Part shown: in pieces, positions 1 to 47,500 of the stretch
How the letters are laid out: every line of letters starts with the position of its first letter
Numbering within the stretch: position 1 is the stretch's first letter
Assembly (NCBI RefSeq): GCF_000003815.2
Contig: NC_049984.1
Span: forward strand, 25,307,330 to 25,371,329
Source: Branchiostoma floridae
Lineage: Eukaryota > Chordata > Leptocardii > Amphioxiformes > Branchiostomatidae
Reading direction: 5' to 3'
Length of the DNA stretch: 64,000 bases
Notes under the pieces: generated by a model
What the model was told of the DNA's origin: nothing
The model's database searches: none
The model's input: only the letters and a program-made list of their open reading frames with translations
Translations under genes and position numbers: made by a program

Positions 1-1045
1 CCCCTTTAGCGTTTTCGCTCCCCCCCCCTAGAGCAGCTGGTTACTACATATTACAGGTGCGCTACCTGGTACTATACTGCACCTGGGGAGTAACGTATAT
101 GGTGTGTTACCTGGTACCTATATGGCACCTTATTACCGTACCGTAAGATGTCATAACTCAAAAGTCGATACTATATTGTTCGGTGCAAACATGACATTGA
201 AATGAAAAAGACATTTTTTGCAGCTGAGGTGGCATAAAAACAGTGCTACTGCGAACGTATAAATCAACACCGTCTATGGTACGGAATACGTCAGCTATAT
301 GTTTTCAATTTGTCACAGTGTTTTCTTTCTTGTGCTGGAAACATTTCCAAAGCACTAACAAAAACACACGTGGATAATAGTTTCTCATTATAAACACTAT
401 CTACGCTACGCGCAAGTTGATATAGCTGTTGCTAAATGCTACACAAACACTGGTAAAGTACCAGTCTGAAGAAACACGGGTAAATGCATCAGTTCCTAAA
501 TACTAGAAAAAACAGTCATCCCTCGACCAGGTGCATATACCAAAATGTGCGTTATTTTAATTAATACCTAATATTTGCATAATTAATAAAGACATTACAT
601 AGTTCTTTTGTGGTCACTTCATGGTAGAGACTTCATATTGGAGATATATAGGTTGCTTGAGGACAGGTGAATACTATGAAATACATCTTATGTCAAGACT
701 CAGGTATATGCAATAATGGGAATACAAGGGACCCAACCCTCCTTGTCTGAAACAAGTTCAACTATCTTATTACCATGTAATTACGTTAATATTGATACTA
801 TGAATGGAGTTATATATCAAACTCGTGTACTTATATCATTCTGAAACTGCAGTTTGTGGTTTATACCAATCAACTTCTAAAATGTCATGTAAACCCGGTT
901 TTTTTTTTTGGGGGGGGGGCGAAATCGCTAAAGGGGGGCGAGGTAGGGGGCGAGATCACTAGCCGGGGAGGGCGAGATCGCTAGTGATTTCGCCCCCCGG
1001 GGGGGGGGCGAGATCGCGGGGGGGGGGGCGAGATCGCTGTCACAC
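1..1045. repeat. Non-coding stretch bounded by inverted G/C-rich motifs
   Basis: No gene is visible. The first 30 bases (CCCCTTTAGCG followed by a C run) match, in reverse complement, a motif at about 905-936 (CGCTAAAGGGG beside a G run). The interval could therefore be an element with C-rich/G-rich ends. From about 899 to 1045 there is a tandem-like array of G runs of up to 12 Gs alternating with CGAGATCGCT-type words. It includes a short palindrome at about 967-990. The array could form G-quadruplex or hairpin structures. The space between is AT-rich and featureless. Confidence 0.5.
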
Positions 1046-1482: not shown

Positions 1483-1735
1483 GCCATCGTTCGGGCCATC
1501 ATCACAACAGTCCTGAGTGAGCGCGTTGGACGGAGATGGCGGGAGCTCGGCCGTCGTCTGGGTATCACGGATGTCGAGTTGGACGACATCGAGCGGAGGT
1601 GCAACATCAACCTGAGGGGGCTGAAGGAGATGACTGTGGAGAGTCTGCAGCTGTGGCTGGACAGACAACCGTACTGGCCAAACATCTTTGACGTGTGGTG
1701 GGCACTTCAGGACATGCAGATGGCAGATGTGGCAG
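1483..1735 (+). CDS. Gene 1A exon: death domain DD1
   Basis: The acceptor is ...ttcccaAG and the donor is gcaG|GTACCG. The 84 codons fit a six-helix death domain: [14 protein letters not shown] carries the conserved Trp and Leu of helices 1-2, then [10 protein letters not shown], then [13 protein letters not shown] with the helix-4/5 Trp. The protein is about 95% identical by eye to the unit 2 exon 40921-41173, which has the same length and phases. Death domains pair with other death domains in signalling complexes. Reading through the donor gives a short alternative C-terminus that stops at 1770. Confidence 0.8.
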
Positions 1736-4048
1736 GTACCGGTCAGGAGACGTGCCCGTACAGAGAATAACAATAAGTCAAGTCAAGTCAAGTCAAAGTT
1801 TATTGCACAACATTTGTAGAACGGGTACAATGTAAGGCAAACTCAGTTTACGTTATACTACATTATATTGTACATGTATAAGACAACTAGCAGTATACAA
1901 GTAGTATAATTAAGCTAATAACTTAACAATAGATGACGGCTGTGCACTATTCGAAGAAACACAATGTGCAATGTGAATTAAATCCAGAATGATGCGGCAG
2001 ACTACTAAGTGGATTGTTGGAATAGAAGCATTGGTGCTACCTGTATTGTTCATATGTACAACAATATAGTCTTTGTTGAGCGTAATATAAAATGAGATTA
2101 GATTAGATCGAGATAAGATAAAATGAAATAATCACCTAAGTATATAACCCAAAGATTGCATGCCTGCAATATGCATGTTGCAGATATTGTACTTGCGACC
2201 GTCCGTAATGAGCGAAATCTTGCCGGCGCCAAAGACGAGTGTGTGGAGAACGACGAAGAAGATGGGAGGGAAAATAACGGAAACAACGACCAGGAAAAAG
2301 AAATGGCTAAAAAGAAGGGACAGGTAAACGCAAGTCTATTAATAAAACAGCATACACCTTAACATATGGATTATTAAGAACTGGCAATGGCATGAATTCT
2401 ATGCTATTTGGTCTGAAACATCCGACCTCCTTTTCCAGTGTTGCTTGTTTATGGATAACGTTTTGAATTATGTGTTCTCCGTTCCAAGGATCCTTTGCAG
2501 GGAGGATCTAAGGCTGAAACAGGTTCCAAGCCGTCTTCTGGGAGATTCGAGGAACTTTCCGTCTCTGCAGCAGGTTAGCATTTGATAAACGTTCCGATTA
2601 TTCATACTCTGTGTGTACATCTTTCAGTCCATTTAAAACGAATTGGTTCTTGTTCAAGATCTATTGGCGGATTTCAGTCGCTAATAGGTGAGGTCTAGAG
2701 AGACCCGCTTAAGGAACAAAGCACATATCTTCACAAGTTGTCATTACTAATGCTCGAGATTTTTTTTGTACTGACGGACACCTATTTGTACTGACATCCC
2801 ATAGGCCGTAAGATAACTCGCATCTTGCTGATCAATGATGAATATGGAACCTCGCATGGAGGAATCTCTACCATCAACTGTCAGGTAGGACAGCTGACCG
2901 CCAGTGACTACCAAGCAGATGTAAGTTGCACAGTTCTCTATGCCCCGGATAAAGACCAGAGAGATGCAGATAAGGACGGTGTTCAGCTTATCGAGCCGCA
3001 CCCCGGAGCAGGACCCAGGGGTTCGAGGGACCCGTCGATAGATTGGCTGTACTATCATCGAGAGCACTACCCTCACCTCCCAAATGATGTTGACTGCGTC
3101 ATTGGCCATGCAGACATCACAGACCAAGCAGCGAGAAAAATTAAAAATGATCGCTATCCCCAGGCAAAGTTGGTCACCATCAACCATGTCATACGAGAGA
3201 ATACAGACGCTTACAAGGGGAGACGCAAACAGACCGAAGCTTGGAAGAAGGAATTGGATGCTCTAAAAGAAGTGGTAGATGCAGATGCTGTCTTCTCTGT
3301 TGGTAGGCGGATCTACAAGCACTGCCACAGTGTGTACAAAGGAGACAAGGGGCCAAAAAGTCACCATATCTTCCTCCCGAAACCATCTGATATATTCGTG
3401 AGAACCACAGTGAAAGCTGGTAGTGGCGGACAGTTGGTGGTTCTGTCCATTGGCAGGGTGAGGCAAGTAGAGAGGCTGAAAGGTCATGACGTCGCAGCAG
3501 GGGCCATGGGAATAGTTGGAGAGGTGATCAAGGATGTTGCGTGGCGTGTATGCGGCATCAACACGGATGACTTTGACGTAAGTATGAAAATCCTGGAAGA
3601 CAACCTGAAGAGTGGAAACCTGAAGCCCACCCTGGTGCCTTATGGAACGCAGGAGGAGATCTGTGACAATATGAAGAAAGCCCACCTGGTCCTGATGCCA
3701 TCCCGTTCTGAGCCTTTTGGTCTGGTCGGTCTGGAGGCCATCGCAGCAGGCATACCTGTGCTTATCTCTGACAAGTCAGGACTGGCAGACCTGATCAACG
3801 AGTTGATCGAGAAGAAGAAGTGCCACCCAGACCGCAGGGACAGGATTGTGGAAACCAGTGTGAATGAGTCTGACCTCAATGCAGATGCAAAGGTGTGGGC
3901 AGAGAAAATCCTGGACACCCTGGAAAACATTGAGGCAGAATTCGAGAAAGCAGCAGAGTTCAAGCGGGAGCTGCTGGCTTCCAAGTACTGGGAGGAATCC
4001 CATCAAGACTTCCTGCGCACCTGCGGCATCACCGCTGCACACAAGTAG
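1483..4048 (+). CDS. Gene 1A: death domain - linker - GT4-type glycosyltransferase (5' end outside or lost)
   Basis: Four exons join in one open frame: 1483-1735, 2184-2323, 2501-2573 and 2805-4048, together 1710 nt or 569 codons plus TAG. Phases are compatible throughout: phase 0 entry, then junctions of phase 1, 0 and 1. The first two exons have exactly the same lengths as their unit 2 counterparts (253 and 140 nt). The product would be an intracellular death-domain protein ending in a GT-B fold glycosyltransferase, so its likely role is death-domain signalling joined to transfer of a sugar or nucleotide-sugar. No start codon is visible. In unit 2 the DD1 exon is preceded by an ANK array; here a repeat lies upstream, so either more exons lie left of the window or the gene is 5'-truncated. 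No signal peptide or membrane segment is seen. Function is inferred from domains only. Confidence 0.72.
1776..2010 (-). mobile_element. Retroposon tail inserted in gene 1A intron
   Basis: Four AAGTC pentamers are followed by AAAGTTTATTG, the reverse complement of a CAATAAA-type 3' end, so this looks like a minus-strand retroposon 3' terminus with a short-repeat tail. The matching unit 2 intron (after 41196) runs directly from 'ataacaata' to 'ttggaata' and lacks this block, which supports an insertion. The family is not recognised. Confidence 0.45.
2184..2573 (+). CDS. Gene 1A linker exons (2184-2323 and 2501-2573)
   Basis: Two small exons encode a charged, probably disordered linker. The first gives DIVLATVRNERNLAGAKDEC and then an acidic and Asn/Lys-rich stretch ending KKKGQ. 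The second gives GGSKAETGSK...LSVSAA. Acceptors are TTGCAG and TTTGCAG; donors are CAG|GTAAAC and CAG|GTTAGC. Junction phases are 1 into the first, 0 between them and 1 out of the second, the same as 41847-41986 and 42213-42276 in gene 2. The second exon is 9 nt longer than in gene 2, an in-frame length change. The intron after 2573 begins with the same 'gttagcatttgataaac' as in unit 2 before the sequences diverge. Confidence 0.75.
2805..4048 (+). CDS. Gene 1A terminal exon: GT4-like glycosyltransferase domain
   Basis: This single exon has 414 codons ending in TAG. The acceptor catAG at 2803-2804 gives phase 1, so the frame enters as G-RKITRILLINDEYGT. The N-terminal Rossmann half has a first beta strand (TRILLIND) and a glycine loop (HGGI). 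The C-terminal half has VLSIGRVRQVERLKGHD, typical of the GT-B sugar-nucleotide half. The EX7E motif is EPFGLVGLE (about 3709-3735), followed by AIAAGIPVLIS, as in family GT4. The length is normal for a complete catalytic unit. From memory, similar GT4 domains occur in prokaryotic and metazoan biological-conflict proteins; that link is inference. The donor and acceptor substrates are unknown. The same position in gene 2 holds Roc-COR instead. Confidence 0.8.
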
Positions 4049-4149
4049 GGTGAGGAGAATTCACATGAGGGAACACTTCACAATTTCAGAGCTTTGTCCG
4101 TGTAACATTAAGATGAAGAAAGCTAAAAAGCTTTGTATTGTCAGTTCCA

Positions 4150-5428
4150 CTAAATAATTTATTACTACATACCAGTCGTCCATATTTAAGCCGTCTCTTG
4201 GTGATACATACACATGCAAATCAGTTGTCAACTCCCTGTGTGCGTCTGAAGAAGTTGATGTGCTCTCATCAAACCAACTCTTCACTGATTTCTCTGACTT
4301 CCACCTCCGTCCGACTCGTGGCCTAGCCACCCTGGACTTTCTTATCACCAACCGTAAGTCTTACTACACAACCCTCTTATTTCCGACCCCCTCGCTACTA
4401 GCGATCATAACGTAGTCACATTACAGTCCAAACCGACGTGTGTGCTGGTCAACAAGACGACCAAATGGTCATGTCTAGACCCATACGGGATTCTGAACTT
4501 CGCTGTTTTGGGCAATAGATTACTTCCCACGATTGGACCGAAGTGTTATCCGCTCGCACTGCTGTGGACAAGTCTCGAGCATTATATGCCACCCTACAAG
4601 GCCAACTAAACCACTTTTTCCATTAAAACATATTCGCCTTCACCGCCAGGACAAACCCTGGATCACACCTGCTATCAAAACCCTGATTCACCAACGTCAA
4701 CTGGCCTTTGCTAATGATGACGTTAAGTCCTAGAAACTGGCATATCAGAAACAAAGTTCAGCGTGTGATTTCGACCGCCAAAGCGACATACTTCAACACG
4801 AAGATTAAAGACTTTAAGAAAGAAGACCCTGCTCGGTGGTACCAACGAATCAAAACCATGGCTCACTCAAGAAGAGCGGAACCTGTCATCCACATCAGTG
4901 ACGTAGCGCCCAGTGACACTCTGGGGATAGCAAACGCAATTAATAGCTCGTTATCCTCTGTGACTACCTTTCTGCCGCCACTTGCCAACGCTTCCTTCCA
5001 AGGCATGGTACCGGAAGAGTGGAAATCAGCTGTTGTCGTCCCCATCCCAAAGACCAATCCACCAACCATCGGTGACCTCCGTCCTATTTCCTTGACATCT
5101 CTGTTGAGCAATGTCGCGGAGAGTTTCATTGCCCAGTCGGCTCTATCTGGTATCCTTCCCCAACTCGACCCGAAGCAATTTGGACCTTACTAACGAGATC
5201 TTCAAGGCTACAGACAAGACAGATATACTGTGCTCCTTAGTATCAACAGACTTTAGTAAAGTGTTTGATCGCGTTAACCACAACGTTGCCATTCAACGTC
5301 TGATCGATCTAGGCCTGAGGCCCTCAATTACAAGCTGGATAGTCGACTTTCTCAGAAACAGACAACAAGCAGTTCGGTACCATGGTGCGCTTTCCGAGAA
5401 AATCACCGTTACCTGTGGCCTACCTCAG
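4150..5428 (+). mobile_element. Decayed non-LTR retrotransposon (endonuclease end plus reverse transcriptase)
   Basis: Broken frames on the plus strand give the C-terminal endonuclease (LDFLITNRKSYY, then a SDHNVV motif near 4401), the linker region (HRQDKPWITPAIKTLIHQRQ) and the reverse transcriptase N-terminal half (VPEEWKSAVVVPIPK, GDLRPISLTSLLS, then DFSKVFDRVNHN). It is CR1/L2 or jockey-like. Stops and a frameshift occur, and a deletion near 5190 removes the usual residues after QFG. The element ends abruptly at CGLPQ, before the catalytic YxDD block, and is joined directly to the COR sequence of gene 1B. The copy is dead. Confidence 0.8.
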
Positions 5429-6495
5429 ATCCCTGTCAAGTGGTTAGAACTAAAGTCTAAGCTGCAGGATATGTACAAGGAAGGTAGGAGATACTGCAGC
5501 CTGCAGGAAGTCATGGAAGCAATCGGCAGTCCGCCCAAGACAACCACAACAGAAGAGAACGCCATCAGCATCCTGACCTTCTGGCACCTTTGTGGCGACA
5601 TCATCTACTTCCCGGTCCAGAACCTCCGCAACTTCGTGATCCTGGAACCACAGTGGTTCGTGGACGTCTGCAAAACCATCATCACAATCCCGCAGTACCG
5701 AGATCGTGAAGTGAAAGATGAATGGGACAGGCTGCAGGAGACAGGGGAGTTGCGAGATCACTTGATAGATTACGTGTGGAGTCACCGAGAAGAAGCCCTG
5801 CGGTACAACTTGATGGAACACAAGCAAGAGCTGCTGGACATGATGGAGAAGTTTGATCTGGTCCTTCGATGCCATGGGCGCAGCGAGGAAGAGACCGGTC
5901 CAAAGTGTGATGTTGCCGGGGAAGCAACGTACTTCGTTCCATCATTACTCACGTCTGTAAAGGATGAGAAGAAGCTCTACCCACCCGGTACAACATGCAG
6001 CAAGCCGATCTTCGTCGTGTTTGACGGCAAGTTCTGCCCTGTCGGCCAGTACCATAGGATGGTCATCAGCAGTATGCGTCGCTACCTCAGCGTCAAACCG
6101 CAGCTAGCGTATGCGTCATGTGCCAAGTTCATCACAAGTAACATCAAGAGGCAGACCTTCATCCTCACAAAGGAAAAGTTCTTCCTGAAGGTTGGATTGG
6201 TGTCTTCAGTGAAAGATGAGGAAAGCTGCTTTAGCCATGGCCCCAGTGTGAGGGAAGGTTTGGAGGAAGATTTGACAGACATCATCAACAAGTGGGTTCC
6301 AGGCATCCGGTACAAGTGGTGCGTCAGGTGCGGCTGTGAGGGCCACAGGGAGAAGGAAGATGCTGACAGTTTCCTCCTTATAGAAGATCTCAGCGCTACC
6401 GAACACTTCAAGAGTGGTGAAATCGTCTGTGAGACGTACGCACCTGCAACTACAACCGTCAAGGAAGCTGGCCTTTCCGACTGGTTCCGAAACCC
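5429..6495 (+). CDS. Gene 1B COR-domain exon (truncated 5')
   Basis: This encodes [19 protein letters not shown] to SDWFRNP. It is about 95% identical to the gene 2 exon 44501-45753 from its codon 63 on. COR is the C-terminal-of-Roc dimerisation domain of ROCO proteins. Visible COR features are the [20 protein letters not shown] helix-strand and [16 protein letters not shown]. The second half has a Cys/His-rich segment ([13 protein letters not shown]), conserved in the other copy. The donor is CC|GTTAGT, phase 2. Confidence 0.82.
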
Positions 6496-8645
6496 GTTAG
6501 TGATCATTTTTATGCTATCTGTTGCTTTCGGGGATAGTTTTAAAACATTCATTCAACGTTAATGCTATGTGTGTTAAAATGGTGATCAATGTTTTAACAT
6601 TTTGCTGACAGAGTTTTGGCTAGTCCTTTCGAAAGTCCACATACATTTAAAGAAGAATCTGATATGATAATTGTTTTGTGATGTATCCTATCTCATTATC
6701 GTAGAGTGCCGCAGACTGCAGAGGAAACGTTGGCTTATCCAGGAAGCCTACCGACAGGTAAAATGATCAAATGTGTTGTCTGTAGGATTTTGATCTATTC
6801 TTGCATGGATCAACACTCTAGTAATGTCTAATTGTATGTACATGTTTACCCTGTTTCTCATTGAAATGTGTGTCAAATGGATACAGCTGAACTAAAAATG
6901 TGTAAAGGTGAAAATCTTATCTACTCCTATAGTACTAATGCCAAATGAAGATTTCTTTAGAAGACCTGTTCATGTTGACTTTTTGAACATGCAAACAAAT
7001 ACTGTTCGATATGTACAGGAACACTATTTAAGAATGACAAGATGGGAAGGTTATATATTTGAAAATAAGTGTTAATTGCCCTTTCAGTTTCTCAGGACTA
7101 CTTCCACCTGGTTGTGAGGGAGGTGTGTCCAAGATGGAGAGAGCTCGCCTTCCGCCTCAACCTCTCACCTGCAAATGTTGAGGAGATCGATGAGCGACAC
7201 CGGGGAGAGCCACGGAAGTGCTGCAGGGCTGTCTGTGACCGCTGGGTTCAGCTGAACGGCAGCAGTGCGACGGTGGAAGTGCTGAAAGACGCGCTCATGT
7301 CAATCGGAGAGGTGCCGACGGCAGAGAATATCGACGAGTGAGTAGTAATTTGTGACAGATTATTGATTAAAAAGCAATGTTATATAAGGTAGTCATAACA
7401 ACACTTGTTTTTTTATTGGTTTATGTGTTCAGGAAGTATACCTTTCTCATGTGTTCAGAAAGTATACATTTCTTGTGTGTTCAGAATGCATGCGTTTCTT
7501 ACATGTATGTATTCACAATGTGTACCTTCTATACCAGCACCTCTGTTAAGTGTGGCAGAAACATCAATAAGATGATGGTGGCCACTAAGAAGAAGAAGAA
7601 TGTGTTCAGAAAATATGCCTTTCGTATGTGTTCAGAAAGTATGCCTTTCGTATGTGTTCAGAAAGTATGCCTTTCGTATGTGTTCAGAAAGTATGCCTTT
7701 CGTATGTGTTCAGAAAGTATGCCTTTCGTATGTGTTCAGAAAGTATGCCTTTCGTAAGTATTACTGAAAATTCATGCAAAATTTCTAGTCCTCATTATCA
7801 CAAATTAACTGCAAAGTTAAACAGTAAAATAAATAGCTCTGTGTTATAGATAGCATTTGGTCTATTCATGTATAGCATTTTGATACCATGCAGCTTGCAG
7901 AAGGCAGGGGTTTACTCACGGCAGTCAACACAACTGCAGACAAGTCAGGGAGGTGCAAGTAAGTTGCTCCATAAAATCAAGATAGCCATCAAAAGAATCA
8001 GTAAATGTACCCAAAGTATCTTATTGTGTTGTGATAATCTTTTAACATATCAGTGATTTACGTATTTCGTTTCGGCCCACGCCGAATGATGTATGATTTC
8101 TTTCCCTGTATGATTTCTTTCAAGATTCTTTATGAGCGTTGCTCCTAACTACGTCTGTGTTTTGGTGGTTGGATGGTTTTATTTAGAACTGTTATCAAAC
8201 TTTATAAGATCATACCGAACTGTATTTTCAATATGATTATCTTTTAGCCAAACCAAAAATGCGCAGGACAGATTTGAGGCATAATTCTCTCAAAATACAG
8301 ATATCGGTTTGAATTCCAATGGCCTTGCAATGAGCAAACTCTTTGAAAGAACACTGAGCGTTATTTTACCTCCCCGTTTAAGGCACAGAAAGCTGTTTCG
8401 CCATAATCGTGGAAGACGTGTGCCCACGCTGGACAGAACTCAGCCGCCATCTTGGACTTACAGCAACACAAGTTGACGAGATCGCCGGGAGGCATAACGG
8501 TGACCCACGAGAGTGCTGCCTGGAAGCCCTGAAGCTTTGGTACTTTATCAATGGTAGTGATGCAAGTAAAGAGAGTCTGAGGGATGCTCTTATCTCTGCT
8601 GAAGAGATAGCCACAGCAGAGAAGCTGGATGCACTAACACTGTAG
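5429..8645 (+). CDS. Gene 1B: 5'-truncated ROCO body (COR - DD2 - DD3)
   Basis: Exons 5429-6495, 6705-6757, 7088-7337, 7894-7958 and 8389-8645 join to 1692 nt, an open frame of 563 codons plus TAG. The last four exons have exactly the lengths of the gene 2 exons. Compared with gene 2, the Roc GTPase exons and the first 62 or so codons of the COR exon are missing; the LINE fragment ends where they should be. The reverse transcriptase frame runs in frame into COR. No stop or frameshift is seen in COR, DD2 or DD3, so the body is either recently truncated or still expressed. Possible routes are a fused LINE reading frame, or a new acceptor (cctacctCAG just before 5429) spliced from an upstream exon. 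It is otherwise a pseudogene fragment. Confidence 0.7.
6705..6757 (+). CDS. Gene 1B small linker exon before DD2
   Basis: This 53-nt exon has acceptor cgtAG and donor ACAG|GTAAAA, with phase 2 in and phase 1 out. It encodes VPQTAEETLAYPGSLPT. The unit 2 counterpart 45945-45997 has the same length. Only this frame is open in both copies; another frame that looks attractive here (CRRLQRKRWL) hits TGA in unit 2. Confidence 0.7.
7088..7337 (+). CDS. Gene 1B death domain DD2
   Basis: The exon encodes [20 protein letters not shown], then [20 protein letters not shown], then the [16 protein letters not shown] helix 4/5 segment and the [20 protein letters not shown] helices 5-6. The donor GA|GTGAGT is strong. 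If it is read through, a TGA follows at once, so retention of this intron would end the protein after DD2. The sequence is about 96% identical to 46320-46569. Confidence 0.82.
7601..7756. repeat. 26-bp minisatellite, six copies, in the DD2-DD3 intron
   Basis: Six direct copies of a 26-bp unit starting TGTGTTCAGAAA lie head to tail with almost no divergence. More degenerate copies of the same motif lie at about 7420-7500. The unit 2 intron has only three perfect copies, at 46865-46942. The apparent open frames through the array ([12 protein letters not shown]-like) are a by-product of the repeat. Confidence 0.9.
7894..7958 (+). CDS. Gene 1B linker exon between DD2 and DD3
   Basis: This 65-nt exon has acceptor atgCAG and donor CAA|GTAAGT, with phase 2 in and phase 1 out. 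It encodes [20 protein letters not shown], a polar Gln/Ser/Thr-rich hinge between the two C-terminal death domains. The unit 2 counterpart is 47082-47146, of the same length. Confidence 0.72.
8389..8645 (+). CDS. Gene 1B terminal exon: death domain DD3
   Basis: The acceptor is ggcacAG. The reading [20 protein letters not shown] leads into a death domain with conserved Trp, [18 protein letters not shown] and [11 protein letters not shown], and ends LDALTL-TAG. It resembles DD2 strongly (VCPRW.EL, RH.G.PR.CC, DAL.S..E..TAE), so DD2 and DD3 arose by duplication. It is nearly identical to 47582-47838. Confidence 0.82.
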
Positions 8646-32500: not shown

Positions 32501-35500
32501 ACCGATAGCCTCTACGTGGCTCCACGTGAGGCTGGAAAAGCAGGAATTGGCCAAAATGACAGATAGTTGGCCGGGCAAAAGCTAACAGTTTGTTACACCT
32601 GGTACAAGTTGTGTTGTCTGCCTATTTCGGGCAAATTTGTACTATTTCCAGCGACATGTGGAGCCTGGTAGATGCTACATTACCAAGATGAGATATTGTT
32701 CTTTTTTTGTGTGTGTGCGTGTCTATGCCTGTTTCTGTTTTCCTAGTAAGGTCACAACAAGTAAATTTTATGGATGACATCCTCTCCAGACTGCAAAAAT
32801 AGTGCGATAGGGCGAAAAAAAACAAGATGGGTGAAAAATTACAAGATAGCTGCATTTTAAAAAATAGGCACGATAAAGTTGTGATGACTGTTGTAAAAAG
32901 AATTAAAGGGGAAAAATGGTATCAGAGCCAACAAGGCATTTATTCCCGTATTTAAGACGTACTGGTGTGGTAAAAGTGACACTAGTGTGGTAGACTGGCA
33001 TCACCAACAAAGTTGGCAACAAGACTCATAGCTTCCACATTGGTGTCACTTTTACAACTATCTAATAATTTTCAGTTCTACAACTACAGTCCTAAGTACC
33101 TCGCAAGTGTCACTTCTACAAGTACAATTATTAGGCTACAACGCAATATATTTGCTCATTTTTGTACTTATCGTCATGTTGACCATCCCTGCAGAAGGAA
33201 AAAAAATATTGTTTTTTTTTCTGACTTGTGACTTTGTTACTGCAGCAGAACTTCGGATTTTGTGTATCTTTGCTTTTGACCTACACATGCTATGGTCTTG
33301 AGTTTTTGGTGGCAGATAGCTTGTGATAGCCCACCCACCCCCCTCCCCCAGCTGGTTACTCTAAAACTGCTTGGTCGTTTTTGCCAAACTCTTCAAAGGA
33401 AAATAACGGAATAAAGGAACCACGGATTTCCATGATATTTAGTTATTGATTGGACGAACATCATCAATTGATTGGACTATCAACATTTTGACCCTGTGAA
33501 AGTAAGTTTAAGGTATAACCAAGCATAGATTATCTAGATCTTAAGTCATTTACAAAATAAGATTATTTCATGGAGATATGAGGTCTCGGAATTCTTGTTT
33601 TGTATACGTTTTAGTTGAAGTTTTACGCCTTTCGCCTTACATATCTTTGAGTTTCGTACCATGAAACGACGTACGGCGGAACGCTACAATGAGACGAAAA
33701 ACATATGGTACCTCACGCACTTTTAAAACTGTATTACTGCATTCCACGTCTCTACAGGATGTAGCCACAACGGGCTCACTGATCACAGCAGCACATAGCG
33801 GACAAGTACAAGTTGTGCAGCAGCTGCTGAAGGCTGGAGCAGAAGTAAATAATACCGATCAGGTAATATGTTACATGTAACACTGGTTCACCTTTATTCG
33901 CGGGGGTGACCTATATCCGTTGTTTACTTTAAGCACGGTATCTATGGATATCAAGTCGACAGACTATCGTTTCAAATTGAGATATTTTCAAATAATGCAG
34001 TTTGAAACCGCCGCGTCGACTTGATATCCCTTAAAATACCCTGTGTTAAAAAAAGAACGGATATAGGATATCCCACGCATAAAGGTGAACCGGCGTTACT
34101 TATGACCATTGATTTTAATGAAAACTTTGATCCAAAATCAAATCGAGTAAAAAAAACAATAAACATAATATTTATTGAATCGTTGATAGGATGGCCGCAC
34201 AGCGCTTTATACAGCAGCGTGGAAGAACCATGTGGAAGTTGTGCAGCAGCTGCTGAAGGCTGGAGCAGAAGTGGACAAGGCCAGACAAGTAAGATGGATA
34301 ATAAAAAAAAAAGATGGCTAAACAACCAATAAAAGCTTACACGGACAGCTGCAGTCTGATTCTCCAGTCATGTTAAATTTATAGATTTTGTATGAAAAGT
34401 GCACTATTGTAAATTTTCGTCACATGTTGTATAAAAGGATGCCTATTGCCCTTTAGGAAAAGTTGATACGGTCACTGTGTCGGAAGGGAACAGTTATTCA
34501 TTCTCATCACATTTCACTCTCGATTCCACACAGGACGGAACCACACCACTGTTCATAGCAGCCCAGGAGGGACATGTGGTAGTTGTACAGCAGCTGCTGA
34601 AGGCTCGAGCAGAAGTGAACCAGGCTAATGAGGTAAGATAGTTGGACAAGTACAATGGCATTTATCATTGTTATCTGATCATTTTGTTCCCTTGCAACAA
34701 GTAGAGTTTCCTTTGTGATATCTCACCTGATAGATCCGTTCATGTGAATACACATAAACGTCTGCTCTCTAATTACAGGACGGATTGACAACACTGTTGG
34801 TAGCAGCCCACGAGGGACATGTGGAGGTTGTGCAGCAGCTGCTGAAGGCTGGAGCAGAAGTGGACAAGGCTGAACAGGTATGACAGTTTAAAATGAGAAT
34901 ACAACAGTTCTTTAGACTTGCCGGTTGTACGAAATGTGCTCCTTTCGGATACTCATTCTCATCAAGTTCTACTCACTTACAGACCGGAGCCACTCCACTG
35001 TACATAGCAGCCCAGAATGGACATGTGGAAGTTGTGCAGCAGCTGCTGGAGGCTGGAGCAGAAGTGGACAAGGCTACAAGGGTAAGGAATGGATAAACTT
35101 CTGAAACTTAACAGTAACAACGTAGCCATGCATGTACGATGAATACGTGTTGTAAAGAAAACAAATTACGGATTTTACCAATTGATGTATGTTATGTATT
35201 ACATATAATGTATACAATATTCTAGTTCTCTTCACTGAGTGAAAGTTGATTATGGTCGCTGTGTCGGAAGGGAACAATTATTCATTCTCATCACATTTTA
35301 CCCTCGATTCCACACAGAACGGAGCCACTCCACTGTACATAGCAGCCCACGAGGGACATGTGGAAGTTGTGCAGCAGCTGCTGGAGGCTGGAGCAGAAGT
35401 GGACAAGGCTATGCAGGTAGGACAGTTTAAAACGAGATTATATCCATTCTCTAGACTTTCCGGTTGCAACATGTACGTAATATGGCCCTTTCCGATACTC

Positions 35501-38500
35501 ATTCTCATCAGGTTCTACTCACTTACAGACCGGAGCCACTCCACTGTACATAGCAGCCCAGAATGGACATGTAGAAGTTGTGCAGCAGCTGCTGAAGGCT
35601 GCAGCAGAAGTGAACAAGGCTACAAGGGTAAGGAATGGATAAACTTTTGAAACTTAACAGTAACAACGTAGCCATGTACGATGAATATATGTTGTAAGGA
35701 AAACCAATTACGGATTTTATGTTATGTATTATATATAATGTATACAATAATCTAGTGCTCTCCACTGAGGGAAAGTTGATTAGGGTCGTTGTGTCGGAAG
35801 GGAACAATTATTCATTCTCATCACATTTTACCCTCGATTCCACACAGAAGGGAGTCACTCCACTGTTCATAGCAGCCCAGAAAGGACATGTGGAAGTTGT
35901 GCAGCAGCTGTTGAAGGCTGGAGTAGAAGTAGACAAGGCTAAACAGGTACGACAGTTTGAAACGAGATTACAACAGTTTAGACGTACCGGTTGTACATAA
36001 TGTGATGCTTTCAGATATTCATTCTCATCAAGTTCTACTCACTTACAGGACGGAGTCACTCCACTGTTCATAGCAGCCCAGACGGGACATGTGGAAGTTG
36101 TGCAGCAGCTGCTGAAGGCTGGAGCAGAAGTGGGCAAGGCTATTCAGGTAACATTACTGAAAGGGTAAGATATGGCTATAAAACCTAACAATAACACCCT
36201 AGTCATGTGCGATGTATATATGATGTTGAGAAAGATGATTAAGGCTTCTGTTACAAATTCATGTAACGTAATGTTATGTATTACATATGTTGTATACAAT
36301 CTTCTATAACCATCAATCTAGTGAAAGTTGATACGTGTCGCTGTGTCGGAAAGGAACAATTGTTCATTTTCACATCATCTTCCTCACAGGACGGAGTCAC
36401 ACCCCTGTTCATAGCAGCCCAGAATGGACATGTGGAAGTTGTGCAGCAGCTGCTGAAGGCTGGAGCAGAAGTGGGCAAGGCAAGGCAGGTAAGATTACTG
36501 AAAGGGTAAGAAATGGATAAGCCTATAAAACCTAACAGTAACACTCTAGTCATGTTGGCTGGAGCAGAAGTGGACAAGGCTAAACGCGTAAGATAGTTCG
36601 ACGAGTAGCATAACATTTATCATTATAGTCTGACTGGCTGGAGTAGACGTAAGTAATACAAATAAGTAATGAGGTTATAAGCGTTTTTGATCAATTAAAA
36701 CGTAAAACGTCGATACAGAATTGAGTAGAAATACTTTGTTGTTGAAACATTCATGATGACCGCACACTGCTTTAAATGGCAGCGCGGAAGAACCATGTGA
36801 AAGGTCATGGAAGTTTTACAGGTTTTGTATGGAAAACTAGTTCATTTAGTCATATAAGATTGCCCTCTTCTTAGGAAATGTTGATAATGTCACCGTGTTG
36901 GAAGGGGACAATTTGTTCATTCTCATCGGATTTCATCCTCGATTCCACACAGGACAGAACCACACCAAAAGACCTAACAATAACACTCTAGTTATGTATG
37001 ATGTATATATGTTCACGTTGTAAAGAAAACCGGTTAAGGCTTTTATTACCAACTTATCTAGGTTATGTTGCATACACTGCTCTATTGCTCCCCTCTGAAT
37101 GAAACTTGGTACGGGTCGTTTTGTCGGAAGGAAACAATTATTTATTTTCACATGCTATATTTTCACGCTTCCACTCCACTATCCACAGCAGCCCAGAATG
37201 GGCATGTGGTGGTTTTTCAGCAGCTGTCTATAAATGTAAAATGAATATGGCTATAAAACACTGACACCATGTACGGTCTATACAGTTTTGCCAGTTGGAC
37301 CAATTTAAGTATATTTTGTAGAAAAGTTTTTATTGCTCTCTATTGAGTAAAAATTTGATAGGGGATTCTTGTCGGAAGGAATCAATCATTCATTTTTATC
37401 TATTAATCTATCTAATCTTATGAAAACGTCTTGATCGCTCCTTCAGCAACGTGTGCTGATTTCCAAGCAGGGCCCTAGAAACAGTGTCAACACAAAATGG
37501 TACATATGTAACGTAACAAAGATTAAACGATTCATCCAATCACATCGGATGACATCACATTTTACTCCCAACACCACACAGGACGGAATCACACCACTAT
37601 CCACAGCAGCCCATAATGGACATGTGGAAGTTGTGCAGAAGCTGCTGAGGGCTGGAGCAGAAGTGGACAAGGTTATGCAGGTAGACTGGAGAAATTAAAG
37701 TAATGAAATTTTACACTGAAGTCTTCTTCATTGTGTCCATTTTTGTGTCCAAGAACATCACCGGCACCATTACCAATTAAACTATACCGATGATCTTGTA
37801 TGAACGGATTATCTTGTTCTTTTTGTAAATTCGTTACGGGTCTTGAAAAAGGATTAATCGGTTATTCAGGTAATATTATCGGTAAAAGAATTATTGATTC
37901 ATTCATCTTGGAAATTGTGTCCTAATTTGCATAATTTAGGTATGACATCTGACGATGTTAATCTCAACCTAAGTGGCAGATGTCACAAAGAAATGTGAAA
38001 TTACTTTAGTTGACCACTGAATGTCAGTGATACAAAATGAAATAAGTTTTAGTCACGCTATTTTGGGCTAAACAATGCAATTCTAAGAATTTATTAAATT
38101 AAATAAAATTTGGTAGCTAAACACAATGTGACCAAAAGTTTCTTTATTAAGAGCAAATAATTGAAAACAAATTGAAAATGATTTTTACTATAGCGCCATA
38201 GTATATGTCACGACATATATGAGGAAATACTGCTCTCGAAACGGGTTGTTGTCTCTTTCAGGGTGTTAACAATGAGGGCTCATATCAAGGTTTCACGGCT
38301 CTACATTTGACAGCTATGGGTGATCACTTTGAAGTCGCCGCCGCCCTTCTCCGCGCCAGTAAAGGCACCATCAACCAGAAATTATCGGTAAATTATTATC
38401 ACCTGTATCTTAACGACATGAAGTCTTACTAAGAAAATGCTGACCCTGTCGAATATACAGTTAGCAACGAACGCTTTTTTTTTTTGACTTGGTGAAATAT

Positions 38501-41500
38501 TAAAAGTGTACGTGTTCCAGAACTACTTCCGCCCCTTTTATCAAACATCACAAGTTGACCATTGTTGGTATCAAGACTTACGAGGTTGGTACAATAAAGA
38601 TGTCCCCGATCGTTACGGTGATTGTAGGAAGCTGAAAATGTACGTATATGATAATACATATCCGTATATATATATAAGTCACACAGCGGTTATCGTGTTC
38701 CTGTGTACGCCGAAGTTAAATGTTTTCTTGACACATTCCCCATTCACTGAACGGAATAAAAGCTACTCCATATACCTGATAAGTTATAAAACTAATAGTG
38801 TAACAATATAACACATTCTATTGCTCCCTGTCTATTCAAAGTAGTCTAAGAAAAATGCTAAATTATCAGCTCCAATTTCTTCAACTTCACTGTTGCTTCA
38901 CAACTTTGGTATTGATTTGTCTAGCTAAAGGTTCTCTACATCAAAAGTACTGGTATTATATAAATAAAGTTGACATTTTGTATGTCACCTATTGTTTATT
39001 GGTGTCTTTAAATATGGAGAAACTACCGCAACATACTTAAACATAGATGATGAATACAATAACCAGAGATCATGTATACAATCTACTTATCATATAATAC
39101 AAGAAACAGGAATTCAAACCAAAATAGCAGTAGTCTCACTGGTACATGTACATAGAAAATGAAACATGATCCACCGCGCTCCTCAGTTAGATTAAACAAA
39201 ACAATGTTGATTGGATGTAATATTAGCTATATGGAATAAATGATTGTGACTTCTTCTCAACAGAGGGAGACTTTTGAATCCAATGAGAAGGCTACAGATG
39301 TAACTCCGCTCCATTTCGCAGCAGAATCAGGTAACCTAAACACCGTGAATCTCCTTATCAGTGCAGGAGCAGACACAACGTGCACAGAGATCAAGGTATT
39401 TGACTTGTTTCATGTTGGCATTAGATTGACTTCGATATTTGTCGGAGGTGAACTAGGACACAATAGCCTGTATAGTAAATGAATAAGCGTCACAAAGGTT
39501 TTAATCAAATCTACCTTTTGCATTATAGTATAGGGCTATCCCCCGAATCGTTATTTCTATTTCATGTCCAAAGCCAATTGTTTTATCTAATAGCATACTC
39601 ATACTTGGTCCGATTGGTATATGTAATGAATAACACAAGTAGACGTTGGTCAATTCTAATATCACGAATCGAAACACCGTGATAGAATTACAATTTTAAC
39701 CTTATATTGTGAAACAATACTCTGTCAGATCATAGCTCGTATCTACGAATGGAGTTCGTCCTGCATTTCTAAAACGAACTCGATTTATTATCATAAGTAT
39801 TATCTTATGATAAGAGCTCATAAATTACACTAAATGATCATTTTTGTCAATAAAAAAGTATATTGCTCATTGTAGGAAGAAGGCACTGGAGAAATAAAGG
39901 CTTTGAGTCCCTATGATGTTGCTGTGGAAGGAAGTAACAAACTTGTGGCTTACACCATTTGGAGTGCCAACAAAACGAAGGCGGCTAACAAAGTATGGCA
40001 ATATTCTTAATCATATGAAAAGATTTGATATTGCTAAGGCATGACAAAACATCGACTTTGAACCTGATTGACGCAGAAGTTAAATCATTTTCCTCCCTCA
40101 ATATTACAGCGTAAATGGAAGCAACCTTCGGTGTTGACAACATCAATTACACATACGTTGATTCTACGGAAGCATATATCTATACCAATGTTATGCAAAA
40201 CTGCCTTTTATATCATGGTACAGTATCCATACTTTGCCTGAATTTAAAAAAAAAGTGTTGAAAACAAATGGATTAATTTATCCATCGATCAGATGGACCT
40301 GAGCAACGAATATACATTATGTTTAGAGACTATACCAGAAAGTTACATCATCTTTTCTGAAATCCAAGTCATATATGTTGCATGTATTAAGTAACGTAAA
40401 CAATCATTATCTTGGAACTGAAAACAGTAATTGTCTTATCTATATCGCAGCAATCTGGACACCAGTTTCCTTCGGAGCTTTCAGCACACCGGGCCGCTAT
40501 ACAAGCAAGGCAGCGAACAGAGGAGGTATGTGTACGTGGTCCCACCACAATATTCAATGAATTAGAGCCCGACGAAGCATCTTTCCAAGAGTTAGATCTC
40601 TCCAAAATCCGTTTGAGATATTCTTTCATAGTTGTGTAATGATAGGAAGCAGGATCAGGGGAAAATACCCAAAGTTAATTGGTAGAGAAGTTTGTTGTTA
40701 CATGTTACTATGTAACATGTTTTGCAAACTCTATACAAAGAGACAACTCAATAGCATATATGCACAGAATTGCCATGCTACATTTACTTTTTTAGTTTGA
40801 TGCATTTGTGTCTTTTACTAATGCTGCTCACTTGAATACTTAATTTCCTCATCTTAAATCCTCAACTTTATTTCCGCATTTTGTTATCAGAAAGTTTTGT
40901 TTCTCTAATTCATTTCCAAGACCATCGTTCGGACCATTATCACAACAGTCCTGAGTGAGCACGTTGGTCGAAGATGGCGGGAACTCGGCCGTCGTCTGGG
41001 CATCACGGATGTCGAGTTGGACGACATCGAGCGGAGGTGCAACATCAACCTGAGAGGGCTGAAGGAGATGTCTGTGGAGAGTCTGCAGCTGTGGTTGGAC
41101 AGACAACCGTACTGGCCAAACATCTTTGACGTGTGGTGGGCACTGCAGGACATGCAGATGGCAGATGTGGCAGGTCAGGAAACTTACAGATTATAACAAT
41201 ATGTACATGTAGACTGTTGGAATAAACAGAAGCATTGGTGCTAGTTGTATCATTCTTTTATACATAGAAATATGCAATGTGCTTATGGTGTTGCATATTT
41301 CGCTACCTGTACATAGGTTTAGTGGCATATTATATATGATGTAATAGTTAGAGCGTTAGGCTTAGAGAATATGGGCGATATCTGTGTCCTTTTTAGGGGC
41401 GCGCGAGTAACCAGAGTCTTCAACGTGTCTGATGTGCATTTGAATGGTGCGGATTTTTACGGAAATGTGTTTACATGACTATGAAGACATATTTTGCACG

Positions 41501-44500
41501 ATTTATGAAAGTTCCAGACATGTACAGAAATCTCCTCTTCAAGCTCATCTTCGCATTTCAGCAGCCAATATAAACGTTAACTGTCGACCGTAGAGTTATG
41601 GAAGACTGAGGTTGTTTTTTGGTGGGTGACACCTCAGTCATTAACGGGAAAAAGTTTGAGATTTGCTTGCCTGTCAATACCTCTGTCTTTGTTGAAATGG
41701 GCAAGACAGCTGATTCATATACAGAAACAAAATGAAATAAAATAAACTATGAGATGAGACGAGATAAGATAAAATGATCACCTAAGTATATATCCTAACA
41801 ATAGCAAGTCTGCAATATGTATTCAAGTATAGTGTGCATGTTGCAGATATCGTACTTGCGACCGTCCATAACGAGCGAAACCTTGCCGGTGTCAAAGACG
41901 AATGTGAGGATAACGACGAAGAAGACGGGATGGAAAAGAACGGAAACAACGACCTTGAAAAAGAAATGGCTGACAAGAAGGAAAAGGTAGACGCAAGTCT
42001 ATCCATGCAACAATCAATATACACCTAACATATAGATTAGCAAGAACTCCTGGCAAAAACATAAAGTCCAGGCTATTTGGTCTAAAACGTCCGTCCATTT
42101 GTTCCAAAAAGAAAGAAAGAATGTTACAAATATAACGTTACACATCAAAATTTCTGTAGCAGTGTTGATTGTTTATGGATAATTTTGAGATGTGTTCTCT
42201 GTTCCTCTCCAGGGCGGATCTACGGCTGAAACAGGTCCGAGAGAGAGATTAGAGGAACCGTCCGTCTCTGCAAAAGGTTAGCATTTGATAAACACCATCA
42301 TTGTTCATACTGTGCGTGTACATTTTCTTCATCTTGCAGTTCGGTGTCCATCTGGAATTTCATTAATTTACCTTGGTCCGAAGAGACTAGGTTGACTGCA
42401 GTGTACATTAATCCAGTATGCTACGTATAAGGAACCTGTTCACAAAATTGACCTCATTCTTATGATGACCATTGCTGCCTTGTTTAGGATCCTCAGATTC
42501 CGCAGTAGTACCGATCGAGGTGGAGATTGGAGGACCGGAACTGAGAGCCCTGTACGACCGCGCCTGTGAGGAGGGGTACACGGAGGTCTACAGTACCCGA
42601 TTTGTACTTGTAGGCAAGTTCGGTAATGGCAAAACTAACCTGTGTAACAGCCTGCTTGGGGACGAGTTTGACCCGGAATGGAAAATCACTGATGGCATAG
42701 CGATCCACCCATGTGTCATGACACAGGAACAGCAATGGAGAAAGCTTGGAGGTATTTTTGAGGACATGTTAAACGATTCAGATTTTGATTTATTAATCAT
42801 AAAATGTTAAAGCAAGGATAATGTATTCTGAAGTAGATTAGATTCGTATACTGAAAATGCTGCCAGTTGTCACGATTTCTTAAAAGCACCTCTTATTTGT
42901 AGGTCAAGAGGATCATTTTCCACATGCTGTGGCAAACGTAATGAAGAAATTGAGGCATGAGAGACAACGAGCAAAACAGCCTAATTTACCAACCAGACAG
43001 AGTCAAAGTCAACCTGACTCTGACGTCATGGACATAACAGGTAGTCTCATAGACTTTTTTTATTCATTTAGGGAATCAATAATGTGGTGGTATTTGGGTT
43101 TCTGAAAATTTACCTATGTATTGTTCTTTATAGATGCACTTCGTCTTCTGCGCAAAGGTTTAAAAAAGAACTCTAGTCCTATTTGTAGCTAAACAATGCC
43201 ATTTTTAAATTCCATTGCAGAGGCAATGAAGAAGACTAGGATTGGGAAAGAAGGTGGGAAAGAGCCTAAATCACCCACCAGAGACAAACAAAGTCAACCA
43301 GATGTTGACCTGCCGGACACCACAAGTACGTTTATGCCATTTGAGACATTTTGTCTCTATTTATACTCAGCGATCTTAGCTAAGTTTCAATTAGTCCTGA
43401 AAATATGGTGCTCATAATTTGAAACCCAAATCCTTTTGCAGCAATAAACAAACGTGTGGAACAAGCCCCGCATCCACTCCCATCTCTAGCGAAGAGACCA
43501 CAGGGAACGATCAGAGAGACATTTCAAGCTTATTTGAAGGCAACAAAAATCTTCAGGAAACAGGATGACAAATCCAATGTCACAGGCACAAAAGAGCACC
43601 CCCAGATTTCTATCTGGGATTTTGGGGGGCAGGAGATTTTCTACAGCACCCAGCAGGTCTTCTACACCCACCGGGCAATCTACGGGATGACCATGGACCT
43701 CACCAAACCCATCGACAATCCTGTGGAAATGTCTACTGATGGTGGTCCAACTAGTCACTGCCATAAGGAAAAAGGTAAGTATTGGGATGGGTTAGGCTGA
43801 TACTTTAAGTCATGAACTCCATATAGTGTTTGTCATTCGGCATTTGACAATTACAAGTTGTCATCTTTTTAAACCAAGGATGAACATTTCATTTCTTTTT
43901 AGGTAATTTTAAACCTTTCAATTGTTTTCATACAATGTTGGACTCAGTTGCCATTATAGAGAGAAGGGAATACATAGAATTAGACTTATTGTTTGTTTCT
44001 CCTTTGTATGAACCTGTACGTAACAAAGACTTCATCGACTATCATCTGGAGTCCATACGGGCACACACGAGACCAAAAGTACTGCAGCATGAGGTTGGAC
44101 GAACTCCAGCAGCAAGGGACATCGAACCACCTGTGATGTTCATCTTTACAAACAAGGACCAAGTTACCGAGGTTGGTAGTCTTAAGTAATATGCTTACAA
44201 TAAAAAGATTTTTCGTTTTTTTGGTTCTATTTTGTATTCGTGGGAGCTGCCGTTAGAATCAAGGTGACCGTGAAACATGCATGCATTCATACATACATAT
44301 ATATATGTATGTGTGTGTGTGCGCTATGACTAATCTATACTGATGCCACTTGCATTTTTAAAGTATTCAAATTCATGTTCCATTACTCTCTATGTAATTT
44401 TTTCTTTGGTAGATGACAAGAATGTCAGAGTTGTTGACATAGTCTGTTTATTGTCCTCACCATTCATTGTAATTCTAATACAGAAACTATTCCTTTCCAG

Positions 44501-47500
44501 GAAATCATACAGAAGTTTCACAGTGATACAAGAAACCACCTGAAAGGTAAGGTCATTGACAAGCATGTTATTGACAGGTACTTTTCGGTGGACAACACAA
44601 AACGGAACCCAGAAGATCCAGAAGTGTCAGAATTGAGAGGATTCATCCTTAATCTGGCCAGACAACAGAGCTACATGGGAGAGAGAATCCCTGTCAAGTG
44701 GTTAGAAGTAAAGTCTAAGCTGCAGGATATGTACAAGGAAGGTAGGAGATACTGCAGCCTGCAGGAGGTCATGGAAGTAATCGGCAGTCCGCCGAAGACA
44801 ACCACACCAGAAGAGAACGCCATCAGCATCCTGACCTTCTGGCACCTTTGTGGTGACATCATCTACTTCCCGGTCCAGAAACTCCGTGACTTCGTGATCC
44901 TGGAACCGCAGTGGTTCGTGGACGTCTGCAAAACCATCATCACCATCCCACAGTACCGAGATCGTGAAGTGAAAGATGAATGGGATAGGCTGCAGGAGAC
45001 AGGGGAGTTGCGAGACCACTTGATAGATTACGTGTGGAGTCACCGAGAAGAAGCCCTGCGGTACAACCTGATGGAGCACAAGCAAGAGCTGCTGGACATG
45101 ATGGAGAAGTTTGATCTGGTGCTTCGATGCCATGGGCGCAGCGAAGAGGTGAGCGGTCCAAAGTGTGATGTTTCCGGGGAGGCAACGTACTTCGTCCCGT
45201 CATTACTCACGTCTGTAAAGGATGAGAAGAAGCTCTACCCGCCAGGTACAACGTGCAGCAAGCCGATCTTCATCGTGTTTGACGGCAAGTTCTGCCCAGT
45301 TGGACTGTACCATCGGATAGTCATCGCCAGTATGCGACGGTACTTCAGCGTCAAACTGCAGCTAGCGTATGCGTCATGTGCCAAGTCCATCACGAATGAC
45401 GGTAAGAGGCAGACCTTCATCCTCACAAAGGAAAAGTTCTACCTGAAGGTTGAATTGGTGTCTTCAGTAAATGATGATGCCAGCTGCTTCAGCCATGGCC
45501 CGAGCGTGAGGGAAGGCCTTGAGGAAGATCTGAGAGACATCATCAACAAGTGGGTCCCAGGGATCCGGTACAAGTGGTGCGTCAGATGCTGCTGTGAGGG
45601 CCACAGGGAGAAGGAAGATGTTGACCGTTTCCTCCAAGTAGAAGATCTCAGCGCTACCGAACACTTCAAGAGTGGTGAAGTCGTCTGTGAGACGTACGCA
45701 CCTGCAACTACAACCGTCAAGGAAGCTGGCCTTTCCGACTGGTTCCGGAACGCGTTAGTGATCATTTCTATGCTATCTGTGGCTTTCGGGGATAGTTTTA
45801 AAACATTCATAGTTAATGCCAAGTGTATGGTGATCAATGTATTAACATTTTTGGCTAGTCCTTTCCACATTCCACATACATTTAAAGAAGAATCTGATAC
45901 GATAACTGTTTTGAAATCTATTCTAATATATCTCATCATCACAGACTGCCGCAAACTGAAGATGAAACGCTGACTCATCCAGGAAGCCTACCATCAGGTA
46001 AAATTATCAGATGTGTTGTCTGTACGATTTTCTATTCTTGCACTCTAATGTCTAATAGTGTGTAAATATTCACCCTTTCTCTCATTGAAAGTTGTATCAA
46101 ATTGGATACTGCTGCACCAAAAATGTAAAGCTTAAGGTGAAAATCTTACCTACCTTCAGTACTGATGCAAGTGAAGATTAGATTTTAGAAGACATGTTGA
46201 TGATAAGTTTTGGAATATTTTGTGCAAACAAATGCTGTTCTGTTTGTATCCATATGTAACTGAACACTGAAAGAAAGGAAGGTTAGATATTTGAAAATAA
46301 TTGCCGATTGACCTTTCAGTTTCACAGGGCTACTTTCACCTGGTTGTGAGGGAGGTGTGTCCAAGATGGAGAGAGCTCGCCTTCCGCCTCAACCTCTCAT
46401 CTGCAAATGTTGAGGAAATCGATGAGCGACACCGGGGAGAGCCACGGAAGTGCTGCAGGGCTGCCTGCGACCGGTGGGTTCAGCTGAACGGCAGCAGTGC
46501 GACTGTAGAAGTGCTGAAAGACGCGCTCATCTCCATCGGAGAGGTGCCGACGGCAGAGAATATCGAGGAGTGAGTAGTGATTCGTGACAGATTATTGATT
46601 AAAAAGCAATGTTATATAAGGAAGTCATAACAACACAGTGTTTTTTATTGGTTCATGTGTTTATGTGTTCAGAAAGTATACCTTTCCCATATGTATGGCT
46701 TTCTTGTGTGTTCAGAAAGTATGCCTTTCTTGTGTGTTCAGAATGCATGCGTTTATTACATGTATGTATTCAAAATGTGTACCTTCTGGACCAGCACGTC
46801 TGTTAAGTGGCAGAAACATCAACAAGATGATGGTGGCCACCTAAACACTAAGAATGAAGAAGAATGTGTTCAGAAAATATGCCTTTCGTATGTGTTCAGA
46901 AAGTATGCCTTTCGTATGTGTTCAGAAAGTATGCCTTTCGTAAGTATTGCTGAAAATTCTGATGCAATATTTCTAGTCCTCATTATCACAAATTAACTGC
47001 AAAATTAAACAGTAAAATAAATAGCTCTGTGTAATAGATAGCATTTGGTCTATTCATTGATAACATTCTGGTACCATGCAGCTTGCAGCAGGCAGGAGTA
47101 TACTCACGGCAGTCAACACAACTGCAGACAAGTCAGGGAAGTACAAGTAAGTTGCTCCATAAAATCAAGATAGCTATCGAAAGAATCAGTAAATATAAAG
47201 TATTTTATTGTGTTGTGATAATATTTTAACATATCAGTGATTTACGCACTTCGTTTCTGCCCACGCCATCGACCCGTATTTTTCCCTGTGTGATTTATTT
47301 CAAGATTCTTTATGAGCGTTGCTCCTAACTACGTCTGTGTTTTGGTGGTTGGATGGTTTTATTTAGAACTGTTATCAAACTTAAGATCATACCGAACTGT
47401 ATTTTCAATATGATTATCTTTTAGCCAAACCAAAAATGCGCAGGACAGATTTGAGAGCGATAATTTCTCTCAAAATATACTATTATTAGATGTTTTGTTC

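Follow-up and report, generated by a model that had tools for sequence, protein, structure and literature searches.

A GT4-conflict glycosyltransferase exon in place of Roc and the start of COR in one copy of a lancelet ankyrin-death domain array

Proteins of the Roco/DAPK type join ankyrin repeats, a Roc GTPase, a COR domain and a death domain in the order ankyrin-Roc-COR-death domain, with Roc-COR acting as a GTP-dependent dimerisation switch and death domains clustering partner proteins. GT4-conflict glycosyltransferases form a separate family that is predicted (PMC8195603) to serve defence through modification of molecules of the invader or the host, and GT4-conflict domains of animals, cephalochordates included, have already been described (in passages of eLife 2021 e70394, PMC8195603). 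The same source sets out a bacterial arrangement in which an AP-GTPase is combined with GT4, as well as proposed retroelement-linked fusions; its passages that name AP-GTPase with GT4 concern prokaryotes. Shuffling of domains has long been known from lancelet immunity (passages of PMC2575513), ROCO exons are known to be shuffled in brown algae (PMC11378527), and passages of PMC7159879 name glycosyltransferase effectors, GT4 not being among those named there. In the text searched, in which subscription papers are thinly covered, we found no published account of an animal gene with Roc-COR followed by GT4.

Here we describe a tandem array in the lancelet Branchiostoma floridae in which two neighbouring units share death-domain and linker exons and differ in what follows them. 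The window, by which we mean the whole 64-kb stretch of DNA analysed (C6:25307330-25371329), belongs to an assembly of 513,431,437 bases in 431 contigs that was searched throughout. An initial annotation had noted that three exons of unit 1 match three exons of unit 2 in sequence and phase, with an identical start to intron 3, and had called the difference beyond them an effector swap. The coordinates, phases and splice signals behind the match hold, and the two units are made up as follows.

1483..1735, forward strand: unit 1 death-domain exon, entered in phase 0 and left in phase 1 (its open frame matches Pfam Death at 6.6e-10)
2184..2323, forward strand: unit 1 acidic linker exon A, ending in phase 0, with frame and splice sites kept relative to unit 2
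2501..2573, forward strand: unit 1 linker exon B, ending in phase 1, longer than its unit 2 counterpart (73 against 64 nt) with the frame kept
2805..4048, forward strand: unit 1 GT4-conflict terminal exon, entered through a phase-1 acceptor and 414 codons long with its stop, carrying EPFGLVGLE as its EX7E motif (PF20706 3.1e-71)
4158..5428, forward strand: decayed LINE-type retroelement fragment with stops and frameshifts (RVT_1 1.3e-4, below the curated cut-off)
5429..6562, forward strand: orphan COR exon of unit 1, first part missing, open (COR-A 2.6e-16)
7088..7337, forward strand: second death-domain exon of unit 1, past the GT stop, open (Pfam Death 1.6e-8)
8383..8645, forward strand: third death-domain exon of unit 1, past the GT stop, open (Pfam Death 1.2e-10)
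34229..37671 (approximate limits), forward strand: unit 2 ankyrin-repeat region, with internal repeats (Ank families up to 1.3e-42)
40921..41173, forward strand: unit 2 death-domain exon, placed by alignment to unit 1 and by splice sites
41847..41986, forward strand: unit 2 linker exon A, placed by frame and splice check
42213..42276, forward strand: unit 2 linker exon B, ending in phase 1
42488..44171, forward strand: unit 2 Roc GTPase region, with the P-loop exon at 42488-42751, then 43442-43774 and about 43903-44171
44501..45973 (start approximate), forward strand: unit 2 COR exon region (COR-A 3.6e-17)

The first four exons listed join into a single open frame of 570 codons, 569 of them sense and the last a stop, running across 1483-1735, 2184-2323, 2501-2573 and 2805-4048 (253, 140, 73 and 1244 nt) with no internal stops and a terminal stop at 4046-4048; AG precedes all four exons, and GT follows the first three. 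In the 10 kb upstream of the window lie three segments homologous to ankyrin-side exons of unit 2 (about 77% identity), open and with matching frames, and the predicted product of unit 1 is likely ankyrin-death domain-linker-GT4. Unit 2, whose corresponding exons of 253, 140 and 64 nt end in the same terminal phase 1 and whose intron 3 opens with the same bases, likely encodes ankyrin-death domain-linker-Roc-COR, perhaps followed by more death domains, to judge from its domain matches. There Roc is followed by COR, with Pfam Roc above the cut-off on the second Roc exon (3.2e-8), weak and below it on the P-loop exon (4.2e-4) and giving no match on the third, and with COR-A above its cut-off; in unit 1 there are no Roc exons from linker to COR, and COR lies downstream of the GT stop. 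Unit 2 is like Roco/DAPK-type proteins in possessing ankyrin repeats, Roc, COR and death domains. It is unlike them in that its death domain precedes Roc and in that the stretches scanned contain no Pfam kinase, and unit 1 departs further in being without Roc.

Where the two units part company can be read directly from their alignment. DNA identity is 93.8% over 1462-1737/40900-41175, 77.7% over 2087-2427 and 75.5% over 2436-2623; homology then breaks sharply near 2623, resumes at 5429/44687 inside the COR exon and continues to 8784. Between these breaks unit 1 carries the GT4 exon and the decayed LINE fragment, the latter truncated 3' at the COR junction; neither Roc nor the beginning of COR is present. 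The COR and two death-domain exons past the GT stop, the LINE remnant and the upstream ankyrin-side segments had escaped the initial annotation. A short exon after COR is open in unit 1 (6706-6757) and has an apparent in-frame stop in unit 2 (45930-45980), so that unit 2 may not make its last two death domains. A DNA search of the genome found copies of the LINE fragment on C144, C15 and C12 (84-91% identity) and less similar ones elsewhere. Simple transduction, with the LINE as carrier of the GT exon, is unsupported: some 110 bases separate the GT stop from the start of the LINE match, and no GT4 match adjoins the closest copies of the LINE, on those three contigs. A recent copy of a surviving paralog as donor of the exon is also unsupported, a DNA search that included the flanks having matched no paralog flank.

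What enzyme does the terminal exon encode? The initial annotation had recognised a glycosyltransferase with an EX7E motif and proposed a profile search of the 2805-4048 product, and that search bears the reading out: the product matches GT4-conflict at 240.8 bits (cut-off 26), over positions 1-383 of a 385-position profile and well above general GT4 profiles, with its EPFGLVGLE motif intact, while the GT4-conflict search also matches in 14 of 14 control genomes, so that the cut-off alone does not separate the family from other GT4s. Its best sequence relatives in the Protein Data Bank are group-1 glycosyltransferases at E of about 1e-4, and the EX7E motif aligns with that of one of these whose structure is solved, 2jjm. 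A prediction by AlphaFold2 on the GT alone, made without an alignment, had a mean pLDDT of 34.5 and was discarded, and a bacterial promoter scan was set aside as uninformative for an animal.

Searching the genome with the GT protein returned at least 103 matches, 74 of them of at least 315 residues; these searches score the best candidates, and all genome counts given here are therefore lower bounds. Among the matches found, the closest paralogs are three genes on C191 (63-65% identity), and a tree of 36 sequences places the unit 1 GT as sister to the three C191 GTs with support 0.91. Outside the lancelet, none of 29 pattern matches in prokaryotic contigs and none of 4 in viral contigs proved to be a confirmed GT relative, phages searched with the GT protein gave no matches, and plasmids gave 9 matches, all weak (identities of 26-44%, with coverage of 80% in one), that have no bearing on origin. 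Unit 1 agrees with the animal GT4-conflict proteins in passages of PMC8195603 in its full-length domain, its death-superfamily context, its cephalochordate host and the retrotransposon association that is proposed there for related genes. The order differs: the pattern given in those passages has GT4 before TRADD-N, with LRRs after, whereas in unit 1 GT4 is the last exon, after the death domain, and closes with a stop, and Pfam reports no TRADD-N in the exons and stretches scanned.

Entry into the GT4 exon in phase 1, as the initial annotation had it, is confirmed and extends to the family. Of 38 loci, 4 were set aside as duplicates or as incomplete; in 34 of the 34 exons tested, the acceptor that scores best near the start of the domain is in phase 1. 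These exons are paralogs, and the uniformity counts as a single inherited trait and not as 34 separate events. Given a uniform phase 1, any gene with a phase-1 donor could accept the exon. The comparison of gene structures supports a GT4 exon that behaves as an interchangeable phase-1 cassette, and it suggests that the GT4-conflict enzyme may be a plug-in exon shuffled among immune receptors.

The position of GT4 relative to Roc-COR was counted across the genome for 75 GT4 loci, comprising the 74 matches of at least 315 residues (of the 103) and one place from a second search, shorter fragments being excluded, against all 93 rows of the COR-A set at a pairing distance of 20 kb. COR-A lies within that distance of 32 of the 75 loci, and 43 have none. 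In 24 of the 32 near pairs GT4 is downstream of COR-A on the same strand, in 7 it is upstream, and in 1 it is on the opposite strand; counted by cluster (n=16), it is downstream in 11, upstream in 2, tied in 2 and opposite in 1. Random placement on the same contigs (200 rounds) gave a downstream mean of 0.5 and a maximum of 2, with some lengths approximate and GT4 clustering not kept. Unit 1 is among the minority with GT4 before COR. These counts replace an earlier pairing that had used 8 Roc-only units drawn from 38 Roc rows, hand-picked out of 147 near GT4 clusters, a choice that leaned towards the result; for 80 GT4 stretches it had given 34 downstream, 6 upstream, 1 opposite and 39 with none.

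Individual relatives illustrate the prevailing order. On C14, LRRs, Roc, COR-A and COR-B share a frame of 1306 codons that has a candidate phase-1 donor towards its end, and beyond it come a 72-nt candidate exon and then a GT exon with a phase-1 acceptor; of 11 loci compared by blastn, the 72-nt candidate exon matched in its own locus and in none of the other 10. On C18 the GT exon follows a weak match to Roc and a COR-A domain, and on C17 a death domain lies 0.8 kb ahead of the GT exon. The stretch at C191:240300-249000 carries matches to Roc, COR-A, Death and FIIND (two of these), followed by the GT exon, with GT4 at C191:250273. FIIND self-cleavage occurs in NLRP1 and PIDD, and by analogy it could release a GT4 fragment from the C191 protein.

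Because GT4, where COR-A is near, lies mostly downstream of it, the likelier arrangement is a single protein with Roc-COR as its switch and GT4 as its output, and gene order makes it more likely that the two, where they meet, are usually serial: switch, then output. This order is matched in the bacterial AP-GTPase (LRR-Roc-COR) with a GT4 effector described in section 15 of PMC8195603, to which the C14 relative, LRR-Roc-COR then GT4, corresponds; unlike the bacterial system, unit 1 is without Roc and the start of COR, and the animal genes are split into exons, some adding death and FIIND domains. The effector swap is not supported as the initial annotation worded it, unit 1 being better read as a rearranged copy in a family where GT4 usually follows COR-A. 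Of the interchangeable outputs that it had proposed, the part that survives is a death-domain/linker module leading in frame, cassette-like, into a conflict-family GT4; the part that lacks support is the pairing of sugar transfer and GTP switching as simple alternatives.

The initial annotation had also suggested a genome survey for other terminal modules behind the shared linker exons. A DNA search found at least six copies of the death-domain exon, four in the window's array and two elsewhere: Roc and COR follow in three of the six (units 2, 3 and 4) and GT4 in one (unit 1), and behind the remaining two (C6:19.46 Mb and C15:13.07 Mb, followed part-way) neither Roc/COR nor GT4 was among the matches found. 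The ankyrin part of unit 3 begins in the window at 57835-64000, and its death-domain match starts 37 bases beyond the window end. In unit 4 (C6:25412407-25415663) a change in the length of an A-run in linker exon A shifts the frame, and this unit may be broken.

The age of the break can be approached through patterns of substitution. Between units 1 and 2 dS is 0.15-0.30, and dN/dS is 0.14 in the death-domain exon (4 amino-acid differences in 84 codons), 0.47 in the weakly constrained linker exons and 0.22 in COR. Private COR changes (synonymous/nonsynonymous) number 12/7, 17/11, 17/16 and 13/9 in units 1 to 4, with ratios of 0.16, 0.18, 0.26 and 0.19, and unit 1, with 19 private changes in 1110 sites, shows no relaxation relative to units 2-4. 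On the unit 1 branch the death domain has 4 synonymous and 3 nonsynonymous changes, which are small counts. An unrelaxed COR in unit 1 implies that the loss of Roc is very recent, that the 3' part is still made, or that conversion has homogenised COR; lying after the GT stop, such a COR would be odd if long untranslated, and it weighs against a simple, long-established swap. The unit 1 GT4 exon gives dN/dS of 0.22-0.30 against five paralogs at dS of 0.8-1.2, and values so low at that divergence indicate that the GT4 enzyme has long been constrained and that the split from its paralogs predates the split between units 1 and 2.

Taken together, these comparisons make it probable that unit 1 is a rearranged copy within an array of immune-type genes built as ankyrin-death domain-Roc-COR-death domain, itself of the form ankyrin-death domain-linker-GT4, in which Roc and the start of COR were lost and a phase-1 GT4 exon ends the protein; it reads best as the product of a rearrangement and not as a regulated choice. 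Could the join nevertheless be fortuitous? The decayed LINE at the junction, the orphan COR and death-domain exons and the want of a near polyadenylation signal (the first AATAAA/ATTAAA downstream of the GT stop is at 4622, within the LINE fragment) are what a dead chimeric locus making no useful protein would show, and the in-frame meeting of death domain and GT4 needs no local selection because all 34 GT4 exons tested are in phase 1. We regard such a locus as unlikely, since all four exons are open with splice sites kept, the GT keeps 80 of the 81 columns strongly conserved in 35 paralogs, and the death domain is constrained relative to unit 2, though the counts on unit 1's own branch are small. 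A little less likely again is a unit 1 with both outputs, making ankyrin-death domain-GT4 and, by another splice or start, COR-death domain-death domain. For this speak the COR constraint, equal to that of units 2-4, and a plausible acceptor, ctacctcag, exactly at the LINE/COR junction, from which COR reads in phase 0, the phase in which linker exon A ends; yet the private COR changes are few and could reflect constraint that acted earlier than the break.

We consider it improbable that positions 2630-5429 are a haplotype or assembly chimera. The array is repetitive, and among the dispensable genes of two lancelet species no domain is more over-represented than the death domain (passages of PMC12373286), an enrichment by which unit 1 could be polymorphic; against a chimera, the window contains no N bases, and the unit 1 GT is unlike the other assembly copies found (65% at best) and thus no misplaced duplicate of one. 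Most improbable of all is a GT4 exon unrelated to the death-domain exons, forming a gene by itself or closing a different gene and driven from a promoter in intron 3. An independent start, which the initial annotation had already named as a possibility, was looked for, and the GT frame contains no Met ahead of its first conserved motif, so that it seems dependent on an upstream exon; moreover, the gap to linker exon B is 231 bases, the acceptor, ending cccatag, sits at the family's usual place and phase, and the paralogs are entered alike.

If unit 1 is indeed a rearranged copy ending in GT4, its ankyrin part would sense or scaffold, its death domain would recruit the protein to, or cluster it with, death-domain partners, and the GT4 would attach a sugar to a target of the invader or the host. 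In relatives with GT4 after Roc-COR the output would be gated by GTP-dependent dimerisation; in unit 1, the gate being lost, it would be controlled by recruitment alone, with the ankyrin and death domains giving location and activation. Transcription of unit 1, and the enzymatic activity, targets and gating of its GT4, are predictions from this scheme. On a broader scale we propose, tentatively and as a possibility that we do not favour outright, that lancelets run an animal counterpart of bacterial AP-GTPase-GT4 defence, with a large family of LRR or ankyrin sensors, a Roc-COR switch joined in some members by death and FIIND domains, and GT4 as the standard output on a portable phase-1 terminal exon moved by retroelement-linked rearrangement, unit 1 being a recent, switch-bypassing product. 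At unit 1 a proposed process, in which conflict enzymes become fused to death-type adaptors close to retroelements, is visible beside intact sister copies, which makes breakpoints, phase and age measurable, and the locus draws attention to the many Roc-COR genes of the lancelet that are followed by GT4. Confirmation would mean a bacterial defence architecture carried into chordates, and a testable role for Roco GTPases in gating a sugar-transferring effector.

Several further features of the sequence were recorded in and around the array. Just upstream of the unit 1 death-domain exon, window positions 900-1035 hold a G-rich tract of repeated 'gggggggcgagatcgct'-like units, and a second reverse-transcriptase match (RVT_1 4e-10) lies at C6:25302.7-25303.0 kb, between the unit 1 ankyrin-side segments and the death-domain exon. 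The intron after the second death domain holds tandemly repeated units of about 26 bases (tgtgttcagaaagtatgcctttcgta) at 7423-7760 and at 46631-46942, with a copy number that apparently differs. Positions 13310-14653 and 19854-21110, about 6.5 kb apart, are near-identical (97.6-99.5%), with internal repeats 246 bases apart.
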